64,000 bases of DNA from Ianthella basta (lineage: Eukaryota; Porifera; Demospongiae; Verongiida; Ianthellidae): positions 4,940,951 to 5,004,950 of the forward strand of contig OZ025890.1 of NCBI GenBank assembly GCA_964019415.1, read 5' to 3'. The position numbers and the translations under genes were made by a program. Positions 18,611 through 28,151 of this stretch are shown piece by piece; positions within the stretch are counted from its first letter, which is position 1, and every line of letters begins with the position of its first letter. The notes beneath the pieces were generated by a model. The model was given only the letters and a program-made list of their open reading frames with translations, did not search any database and had not been told where the DNA came from.

Positions 18611-19538
18611 TTACAAATCATCGTCTTCCCCTTCGTCAGGAAGCGCTGTATCAGCAGCCATCTTGATTTCTTGTTCATACCGCTGTGCAAGGCTGGGATC
18701 CATCTGAACTTCTGGCGGTTCTAGTGCTGGCATTTCAACAAAGTCAAGGTTGGGATCTCCAACCAGCTTGCGAGCCAGCCACAAGAAAGGCTTCTCAAAG
18801 TTGTAATTACTTTTTGCACTGATGTCATAATACTGTAGCAAGGTCAAAGTGTGAGGTTAGCTGAACTGGTGGCTAGCTAGACAATATATCATGCTGTAAT
18901 GGGGCACACACCTGTAGATTCTTTTTTCTGTGAAAGACAATTGCCTTGGCCTTCACTTTCCTGTCTTTAATGTCCACCTTGTTCCCACACAGAACTATGG
19001 GGATGTTTTCACAGACTCGCACCAAGTCTCTGTGCCAGTTGGGCACATTCTTGTAGGTTACACGGGAGGTAACATCAAACATGATGATGCCACACTGTCC
19101 CTGGATGTAGTAGCCATCCCTGAGGCCTCCAAATTTTTCCTGCCCAGCTGTATCCCATACATTGAAGCAGATGGGTCCTCGGTTGGTGTAAAACACCAAT
19201 GGATGCACCTCCACGCCAAGCGTAGCTATAAAAATGGCGGTGAGATGAAAGTGGTGTAAGTTATACATGAAATCTACGCCAATCGACGGGCATTAATACA
19301 AGGCGTACCTACGTATCTCTTTTCAAACTCTCCAGTAAGATGCCTTTTGACAAACGTTGTTTTCCCAGTGCCACCATCTCCAACGAGGACAAGCTGAAGT
19401 TATGGATATCGGCGTGAAAAAGCTACGGGGTAACCTACAGCACTGCAAGACGAACGGGAGCAAGTAGACTATGTAACAACTCACTTTAAACGTGGCAACG
19501 GGTTTCTCCTTTTGCCCCGGTTGAACTTGTTGGGCCAT
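18611..19538 (-). CDS. RAN: Ran GTPase, canonical copy (Ran A)
   Basis: Nuclear transport and spindle GTPase. Four minus-strand exons: 19538-19485, 19393-19309, 19225-18912 and 18832-18611, giving 224 residues (human 216). All motifs are intact: P-loop GDGGTGKT, switch [11 protein letters not shown], switch [12 protein letters not shown] (with the NTF2-contacting Phe), NKVD, and SAK. The acidic tail ends GEDDDL, close to the vertebrate DEDDDL that binds RanBP1. The N terminus is about six residues longer than human. Of the three copies this is the most vertebrate-like, so it is the likely housekeeping gene. Its 5' region is the source of the duplicated segment at 22009-22360. Confidence 0.97.
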
Positions 19539-20852
19539 GGTGCTTGACGATTCTAACAAAAAAATGGCAGAAGGCAATGCACCGAATAACATGAAGGATT
19601 CTGCACTGTGCACTCTAAACACGACACGACAAAAGAAAGGTGTTGACAAGTACTGGCATTCTGACTAAAGACCAAAACTAAGCTCCTGGCGTTCTGATTC
19701 TTACGATTTGATATCTCTGGGAAAGGACCGCTTCTGAATATTGGCGCCTTTTTGAAAGGATGCTTATTGTTATGACTATTCACTAGTTCTGACCGGTTTC
19801 ATCCGGTGAATTGCGGTACACGTGTAATGACGTTGCTAATTCCCATGCATTCCTTGCGCACTCCGCTTGCACGTGCGCAACATCCGATGCATGCCGATCT
19901 ATAATCCGTATCAGTCTGCACTTTAAGTCGCCATCATTTTATTTAGCTAGTACACTTCTTCCCTTAAAATTATAATATAGAGGAACTGCAGTTCAGCTCA
20001 TATGACTGCTAGCCACACAAGTAGCTAGCCCTAGCTACTTGTATCTATAGTGCTGTCTTATTCCAACATTCCAATAGCAACATTAGTGCCTCTGTGATTA
20101 GCTAGCTATGTAGCTAGCTAGGCCTTTGGTAGTGTGCAGATGCATGTGCTATTCAACTTTGTTAGGATCACAGTTACATTCGTATACACAGATTGAGGTG
20201 ATAATAATGCATTAATCCATAAGCATTGATCTTGATGCATCATTGTGTGATCCGTTTGATGCAAACTTCCTAAAATAACATAACAACGTCTGTTTCTCTG
20301 TCTCATTTTGGCTAAGGGTTAATGTTCTAATGCTTCCCAGCTGTTGAGAATCAGTAAATGGTAAGTTACTCTATACAGGTTAATTGCAATTTCCTTCGCA
20401 CTCATATTCTCTCATTAATTGATGAAACAGCTTCACATCTGCTCCAGCTCTATAGATCTAGGCCTATGTCCTGTATCATGCAGTTAGCGCACATAATTAT
20501 GTTAGATTAGTTGTATGACTTGTCGCACTGAGACACCAGGCTATGCATGCATCTAATTATGTATAAAATATAGCCAGCTGGTCTTATGCATGCATGTTCA
20601 AACCACGTACGCACGGTCAAAGCGGCTGTAATTTTGAATGATAGTTAATGCAGACATAATATTATATACACTATAAACACCACAAATGTTACAACAAAAG
20701 GAAAATTATTGCGTTAGCTTGGCCTATAGTTTACAATGAAATGAAATACAGATAATTAAACGATCACACAATGCATGAGTGTCATCAGCCTATTCTATAC
20801 ATTCAGTAGCAGATATACAGCTGTGTAAACATGTAAACATGCTGTCTGTTGT
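19539..20852. other. Spacer between Ran A promoter and Ran B 3' end
   Basis: It holds the Ran A promoter (including TTGGCGCC near 19740) and AT-rich sequence rich in TAGCTAGC palindromes. Bases 19563-20480 are repeated, about 90% or more identical by eye, at 24443-25518. No coding region is supported. Confidence 0.7.
19788..19807. promoter_or_regulatory. Shared CCGG-inverted motif upstream of Ran A
   Basis: CTGACCGGTTTCATCCGGTG, an imperfect inverted repeat of CCGG words, lies about 260 bp upstream of the Ran A ATG. Similar sequences occur at about 24669-24686 and at 28233-28254 upstream of Ran C. A common element is possible, but some of the similarity comes from the segmental duplication. 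Confidence 0.3.
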
Positions 20853-26655: not shown

Positions 26656-26926
26656 GGCGGCCAGCTGGTCTCACGCATGCATGCTCAAACCATGTATGCA
26701 TGGTCAAAGTGGCTGTAATTTTGAATGATAGTTAATGCAGATATACACTATAAACACCACAAATGTTACAACAAAAGAACAATTATTGTGTTAACTTGGC
26801 CTATAGTTTACAATGAAATGAAATACAGATAATTAAACAATCACACAATGAGTGTCATCAGCCTATCCTATACATTCAGTAGCAGATATACAGCTCTATA
26901 ATATATGTAAACACGCTGTCTGTTGT

Positions 26927-28151
26927 TCAGATATCATCATCATCATCATCACCAGCAGGCAATGGCATCATGGCCGCAGCTTTCAGCTCCTCTTCATACT
27001 TCTGTATGTCTTTGGGGTCCATGTACACTTCTGGTGGATGCACAGCAGGCATCTCCACAAAGTGAAGCTGAGCATCTCCAGTCAGCTTTCGTGCCAGCCA
27101 CAGAAATGGCATCTCAAAATTGTAGTTGCTCTTTGCACTGACATCATAGTACTACATGGATGGATGACATGTGAGGTGTATATGTATACAAGGACATTTT
27201 ATCAATGCACTAGCTTGCATGGCACAAGTGCTTCAGGTAGGTGCACTGTATGTAAATTGTATAGGCAGTGAGCAAGACTGAACTGCACTGTTAGCATATT
27301 CAATGACCTTAGATACATGCAAGCGTGTGCATGGTACTCAATGCGTGCACAGCTTTACCTGCAGATTCTTTTTACGATGGAAGGCAATTGCCTTGGCCTT
27401 CACTTTCCTGTCTTTAATGTCCACCTTGTTCCCACACAGAACTATGGGGATGTTTTCACAGACTCGCACCAAGTCTCTGTGCCAGTTGGGCACATTCTTG
27501 TAGGTTACACGGGAGGTAACATCAAACATGATGATGCCACACTGTCCCTGAATGTAGTAGCCATCTCTCAGTCCCCCGAGCTTTTCCTGCCCAGCTGTGT
27601 CCCATACATTGAAGCAGATGGGTCCTCGGTTGGTGTAAAACATCAAAGGGCGCACTTCTACACCGATAGTTGCTGAGATATAGATGATGAAATATACAAT
27701 TTCTGTATAGCTCACTGCTCAGCATTGGCACAGCGCATGCAAGCATAGCTACCACCTACCTTCATATCTCTTCTCAAACTCTCCAGTGATGTGTCGCTTG
27801 ACAAAGGTGGTCTTTCCAGTACCACCATCTCCAACCAGCACAAGCTGCAAAGAGACCATAGCTAAGTCACTAGTAGCTAGCTAGCTACAGGTGAAACTAT
27901 AGATCATATGAATTATGAAGAAACTCTACACCATAAGACGGTTTAAGACCAATAGCTGTCTGCTTACTATCTATAGTTAGGCACTAGCTGGCCAGCTACT
28001 TAATGTTGGAGGCATCAGTAGGTAGCTACTATGAATGAATGCTGCCTTGCTGAGCATGCTGCACTCTAGTATATAACTAAGGAAGAAGCTGTTAAAGCAA
28101 TTCGGGATAGAGTCTCACCTTGAATGTGGCAATTGGCTGCGTTTTCTGCAT
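26927..28151 (-). CDS. Ran GTPase, divergent copy (Ran C)
   Basis: Four minus-strand exons: 28151-28119, 27844-27760, 27672-27359 and 27151-26927, giving 218 residues. It has its own short exon 1 (11 codons, [11 protein letters not shown]), unlike Ran A and B. The P-loop, NKVD and SAK are intact. Like Ran B it has Leu in place of Ran Phe72 (QEKLGG), Glu at position 40, Arg at position 48, TGDAQLH in the C-terminal region, and a tail ending in six Asp plus Ile. Exons 2-4 are over 95% identical to Ran B, so it is the parent of, or sister to, Ran B's 3' part. Complete frames, proper splice sites and mostly conservative changes argue for a functional gene. It is divergent from SERCA. Confidence 0.93.

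Follow-up and report, generated by a model that had tools for sequence, protein, structure and literature searches.

Tandem duplication in a Ran gene cluster of the sponge Ianthella basta and a predicted chimeric Ran gene

The sponge Ianthella basta has a cluster of three Ran genes, arranged head to tail on the minus strand and with GT-AG introns at shared positions, in which a tandem duplication has taken place. The window, by which we mean the whole 64-kb stretch of contig OZ025890.1 that was analyzed, contains both copies of the duplicated segment (Table 1). It can be read from the sequence that Ran C exons 2-4 were duplicated, the copy being called Ran B here, and that this copy came to lie downstream of duplicated Ran A sequence comprising the upstream region, exons 1 and 2, and part of exon 3. 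The explanation that we consider quite probable as a whole starts from an ancestral tandem pair, Ran A and Ran C. One tandem duplication, with breakpoints in Ran A exon 3 and Ran C intron 1, would have arisen by non-homologous joining; the copied exon 1 would be able to splice in frame to Ran B, repeats would have entered the new copy, and Ran B would be only weakly constrained.

This kind of event is already known, and Ran B is a new example of it. According to work on Drosophila yakuba, tandem duplications that cross gene boundaries make chimeric genes; 76 such chimeras are given among 15 lines, and in 24 of them expression is raised across half or more of the exonic sequence that the duplicated segment contains (PMC5460883). 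As in those chimeras, one novel junction links 5' sequence of one gene with 3' sequence of a second; unlike them, the parents here are tandem paralogues, and the product is a Ran/Ran hybrid seen in one assembly and carrying several per cent divergence. No tandem chimeric Ran gene was found among the top-ranked results for open-licence papers. The case is a clean capture of exon 1 between paralogues of a strongly conserved GTPase, and its intact parents and readable joint could serve to test how soon a chimera is silenced or kept. Its general importance is modest unless Ran B is expressed, the kind of event being documented genome-wide in Drosophila.

Table 1. Features of the Ran cluster (positions in the window)
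Feature	Position	Strand	Details	Basis
Ran A	18611-19538	-	Exons 19538-19485, 19393-19309, 19225-18912, 18832-18611; 224 aa, intact	Gene model
Left unit of duplication	19161-22005		Ran A exon 3 to C-type intron 1	Collinear alignment
Ran B exons 2-4	20853-21773	-	Exons 21773-21689, 21601-21288, 21080-20853; introns all GT-AG	Gene model
Duplication junction	22002-22010		C-type intron 1 joined to Ran A exon 3 sequence	Alignment and joint read-out
Right unit of duplication	22006-28075		Enlarged by two insertions	Collinear alignment
Truncated copy of Ran A exon 3	22008-22049	-	Pseudo-exon; extra 34-bp gap relative to Ran A; acceptor TATAG kept	Alignment
Exon 2' (copied Ran A exon 2)	22118-22202	-	Open frame and splice sites retained; changes at 5 of 85 sites, 3 of them replacements	Gene model and alignment
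Copied Ran A exon 1	22296-22349	-	53 of 54 bases identical, sole change silent; donor AAA|GTGAGT kept	Gene model and alignment
Nested repeat insertion	22371-24436		Between copied ATG and copied upstream region; TE1 (22371 to about 23518, and 24343-24436) split by TE2 (about 23512 to 24346)	Repeat searches
Copy of Ran A upstream region	24441-25519		Counterpart of 19565-20483	Alignment
Dispersed repeat	25527-26657 (start approximate)		Carries 56-bp minisatellite; inserted in right unit	Repeat search
Ran C	26927-28151	-	Exons 28151-28119, 27844-27760, 27672-27359, 27151-26927; 218 aa, intact	Gene model

The cluster, the duplicated units and their joint

The best match of Ran A in the PDB is human Ran (3gj0, E 6.8e-129), the Pfam Ras domain (PF00071) is found in all three genes, and each predicted protein has an acidic C-terminal tail (EDDDL in Ran A, DDDNDDI in Ran B, and DDDDDDI in Ran C). 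Residue 72 is Phe in Ran A and Leu in both Ran B and Ran C; Phe72 of Ran is described elsewhere as highly conserved and as binding a pocket of NTF2 (PMC4758718). A search of the whole assembly (209 Mb, 96 contigs) with human Ran, in which 150 of 184 candidates were scored, gave 98 matches. All those of at least 59% identity, 10 in number, are exons 2-4 of the three Ran genes or the copied exon 2, and the other 88, at 46% identity or below, are presumably other GTPases; at this depth of scoring, no Ran locus was detected outside the cluster. Seventeen of the 98 matches, all within query residues ~77-166, crowd together at G000:C11:6902572-7207852, and these may represent an expanded GTPase-like family. 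Ran C and a P-type cation ATPase, which we take to be SERCA-like, start head to head about 615 bp apart (28151-28767) and may share a promoter region. Elsewhere in the window (98-2343, minus strand), two tandem ORFs belong to the amiloride-sensitive sodium channel family (ASC).

The sequence-only reading had proposed that a segment from Ran A exon 3, at about 19160, to intron 1 of the neighboring gene was duplicated, and that the junction, at about 22006-22011, fuses Ran C-type intron 1 to Ran A exon 3. Both proposals are borne out, with collinear units and a joint at the positions given in Table 1. CA repeats dominated a self-comparison of the whole window, and the results given here come from focused comparisons. 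Alignment of the left unit with the right one by BLAST reveals four collinear blocks of 85-97% identity: 19220-19562 with 22033-22373 (88.3%), 19555-20085 with 24433-24970 (85.5%), 20081-20483 with 25116-25519 (97.3%), and 20573-22002 with 26660-28071 (93.8%). The homology runs on through the truncated exon 3 copy to about 22008. The right unit is thus homologous to the left, as had been claimed, but the earlier reading missed the two insertions that it holds (22371-24436 and ~25527-26657) and the 34-bp gap in the exon 3 remnant.

The joint reads ...GCACTCTAGTA-ACTCA-ATTGAAGCAG..., with C-type intron 1 on the left and Ran A exon 3 on the right; at the corresponding places, intron 1 of Ran C has GCACTCTAGTATATAAC and exon 3 of Ran A has CCCATACATTGAAGCAG. 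At most about five bases (ACTCA) belong to neither parent, and this single novel junction separates units that lie head to tail. No homology between the two breakpoints was seen when the parental sequences were compared with the joint, and non-homologous joining or template switching is therefore the likely mechanism. The breakpoints fall within two different genes, and Ran A and Ran C, the parents, both keep full open frames.

One joint would also be compatible with a cluster that first held three full Ran genes, the junction being left by a later deletion that ran from Ran B exon 1 to a second copy of Ran A. This route, which we judge very unlikely, needs two events, a larger duplication and then the deletion, whereas one duplication explains both breakpoints because the unit ends coincide at 22005/28075 and 19161/22008. 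It is scarcely credible that the duplication is false, the assembly having placed two haplotypes of a single A-C locus one after the other: the Ran A exons of the right unit are unlike those of a functional allele, exon 3' being cut and carrying the 34-bp gap and exon 2' having its three replacements, Ran B and Ran C differ by many replacements, no further Ran copies were detected among the 150 of 184 assembly candidates scored, and the 64 kb contain no run of N.

The predicted chimera and the copied exon 2

The copied exon 1 ends in phase 0, and exon 2 of Ran B starts at 21773 after TTTGCAG. If 22296 is joined to 21773, the predicted splice has GT-AG sites and yields an intact Ran-like frame of 226 aa, whose product has its best match among solved structures to Ran, namely human Ran (3gj0) with E 6.1e-110 and yeast Gsp1 (3m1i) with E 5.3e-106. 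The exon ends that had been named beforehand, 22296 and 21773, agree exactly with the gene model. The match in phase was inherited, Ran A and Ran C being paralogues that share introns; these common intron positions and phases would allow the copied exon 1 to splice in frame to Ran B exon 2.

A copied exon 2 upstream of Ran B had also been expected, and it is present; what was missed is that it is still intact and lies across the proposed splice from 22296 to 21773. Exon 2' sits between the copied exon 1 and Ran B exon 2, in the path of that splice, and would have to be skipped for the 226-aa A/C chimera to be made. Its acceptor is the first one downstream of the copied exon 1 and scores 3.3, against 3.6 for that of Ran A exon 2, and the donors score 6.4 each, on a generic matrix that serves as a guide only. 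Skipping is therefore not predicted from the sequence. Inclusion of both exons is predicted to break the frame, whereas exon 2' in place of exon 2 is predicted to leave it open. The latter would give another open Ran of 226 aa, in which one of the exon 2' replacements, G to S, falls at the G19 position of Ran on a Leu72 background. We take this position to be equivalent to G12 of Ras.

Exon 2' (22202-22118) and Ran B exon 2 (21773-21689) are homologous, lie in a row, and have equal length and phase. In these respects they resemble the tandem duplicated exons that are described as being used mutually exclusively (PMC9741552); unlike such exons, exon 2' diverges at about the non-coding pace, and what we have is a candidate pair put forward from sequence. 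That Ran B might be a working hybrid gene with mutually exclusive copies of exon 2, the exon 2' form being a slow-hydrolysing, NTF2-avoiding isoform made in one duplication step, is in our estimation a long shot.

Inserted repeats and the copied upstream region

The notion that Ran B captured a promoter together with exon 1 is weakened by the nested insertion. Approximately 2.07 kb of repeats begin about 20 bp upstream of the copied ATG and lie between the copied exon 1 and the upstream region copied with it, such that the copied promoter region does not adjoin the captured exon but starts at about 24441, past the insertion. With the whole insertion as query, at least 55 matches were obtained, 40 of 1,247 first-look candidates having been scored; its left part gave at least 71 (40 of 1,073 scored). 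The comparison of the TE1 parts covered 33 loci (L038-L070), with matches listed for nine; seven of these nine hold TE1, and in all seven both parts are found, matching 22371-23503/23518 and 24343-24426/24436. TE2 (23512-24346) is a high-copy repeat of about 835 bp, most copies having 81-96% identity among the matches listed, and it contains an Arg-rich ORF of 155 aa on the minus strand (23511-23978) for which no Pfam match was found. The dispersed repeat further upstream gave at least 85 matches (40 of 770 candidates scored), with copies on many contigs. In a separate part of the window, tandem arrays of 58-bp and 57-bp units with high identity occupy 58030-58818 and 59105-59505.

In the alignment, the upstream region of Ran A itself has neither insertion; both therefore either came in after the duplication or have since disappeared from one copy, and later entry is the simpler account. 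The nested repeats would most simply have entered next to the copied ATG after the duplication. If the copied promoter were used, the 2.07 kb would have to be transcribed, and splicing of a 5' UTR intron would probably take it out. Such an intron is suggested for Ran A. Scores were computed for the gene-model acceptors and for acceptors in the 150 bases that precede either ATG, and the highest (9.3) belongs to TTCTGCCATTTTTTTGTTAG, which ends 14 bases upstream of the ATG of Ran A. The putative intron has its acceptor end at 19553 and a possible donor at 19704, although this nearby donor is weak (4.2, with the same generic matrix). The copied region keeps a weaker acceptor (4.7) beside the insertion, 14 bases upstream of the copied ATG. 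Should Ran A have this intron, the insertion in Ran B would fall inside the corresponding one and could be spliced out, and the copied promoter may thus be used over a long distance.

Two parts of the copied upstream region have diverged little. The copies differ by a single substitution over the 97 aligned bp from 19565 upward (P 0.004-0.02, depending on which of two background rates is used), a stretch that was picked after the profile had been seen. Further upstream, a distal block (20086-20483 and 25121-25519) differs at 10 of 398 sites, against 50 of 652 in the remaining non-coding sequence of the Ran A copies (p 3e-4). No Rfam family was found in 17500-29000, and the conserved block matches no described RNA; either constraint or conversion could account for it.

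Divergence and the standing of Ran B

With Ran A as outgroup, changes in exons 2-4 could be assigned to lineages in all but three further codons. The Ran B lineage has 10 replaced codons, or 11 if a codon changed on both lineages is counted, and four silent ones; for the Ran C lineage the figures are three (four with that codon) and three. At least five of the Ran B replacements (G78D, H105Y, E158V, R166Q, and F176L) affect residues common to human, yeast, Ran A, and Ran C, the yeast positions being read off by motif. The branch model gives omega 0.59 for Ran B and 0.39 for Ran C; on 206 of 208 codons (two gapped columns dropped) the comparison is underpowered, and neither omega = 1 for Ran B (p 0.45) nor equality of the two lineages (p 0.82) is rejected. 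The single change in the 54 bases of copied exon 1 is not significantly few (P 0.07-0.18), and the 5 changes in the 85 of exon 2' are about what non-coding sequence would accumulate (P 0.36-0.64). Extra copies that evolve faster than their parent are also found among the Ran-like duplicates of Drosophila, where one study reports omega values of 0.47 for Ran-like(1), not significantly below 1, and 0.52 for Ran-like(3) (PMC8645118). The same source counts 13 independent Ran duplications, mostly RNA-mediated (retroposition) with one DNA-mediated (PMC8645118). Unlike most of these, Ran B arose at the DNA level, kept its introns, and is chimeric.

The coding frame has remained unbroken, in that exons 2-4 of Ran B and Ran C differ in length by only one in-frame codon and Ran B has neither a stop nor a frameshift. 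In a neutral simulation, these exons stayed open in 1.7% of 5000 runs, a figure mainly due to the 9 indels in 776 aligned bp of non-coding sequence. It is too low, because none of the nine indel lengths is a multiple of three, making every simulated indel a frameshift, and because the rate is that of introns and flank. The unbroken frame would thus be weak evidence of constraint on Ran B.

There is a serious case, to which we give somewhat less than an even chance, that Ran B is on the way to becoming an unprocessed pseudogene, silent or mis-spliced via exon 2' and open only as it is young; the duplication itself would be the same. An omega that is not below 1, the replacements at shared residues, the insertion between copied promoter and exon 1, and the decoy exon 2' all point this way, as does the tally of 10-11 replaced codons, which is near the neutral mean of 9.2 in the simulation. 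On the other hand, no stop or frameshift has appeared, every splice site is kept, and the one in-frame codon of length difference from Ran C contrasts with the nine non-coding indels. We consider it unlikely that Ran B is instead expressed from another start, either an in-frame ATG within former intron sequence (21788), which would add MVSLQ to exon 2, or a promoter within the inserted repeats. The frame is indeed open from that ATG into exon 2, and the copied exon 1 has insertions immediately ahead of it; however, Ran C also carries this ATG despite having an exon 1 of its own, its presence may be due to chance, and the copied exon 1 and its donor have been kept. On the history that we favor, Ran B may be either a young, relaxed Ran-like gene or a pseudogene-to-be. 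Of the sequence-only reading, the duplication history and the capture of exon 1 are supported, promoter capture is weakened, and the birth of a new gene would be no more than a candidate reading: exon 2' would need to be bypassed or used in place of exon 2, omega is indistinguishable from 1, and conserved residues of Ran have been replaced.

Divergence between the units is patchy. From exon 2 through introns 1 and 2 to exon 3, Ran B and Ran C differ at 15 of 709 sites, compared with 43 of 691 from intron 3 through exon 4 to the 3' flank (p 1.3e-4), and the non-coding parts alone differ at 5 of 310 versus 28 of 466 (p 0.003). These blocks, like the distal upstream block, were chosen after the data had been seen. 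The pattern suggests gene conversion after the duplication, local constraint being the alternative, and because conversion is suspected we give no age for the duplication. The parental genes also share a 166-bp identical tract in exon 3 (Ran A 18938-19103, Ran C 27385-27550), although 33 of 133 third codon positions differ between them across exons 2-3. No run of identity as long was obtained in 20,000 permutations of third codon positions, and a conversion tract is its likeliest origin.
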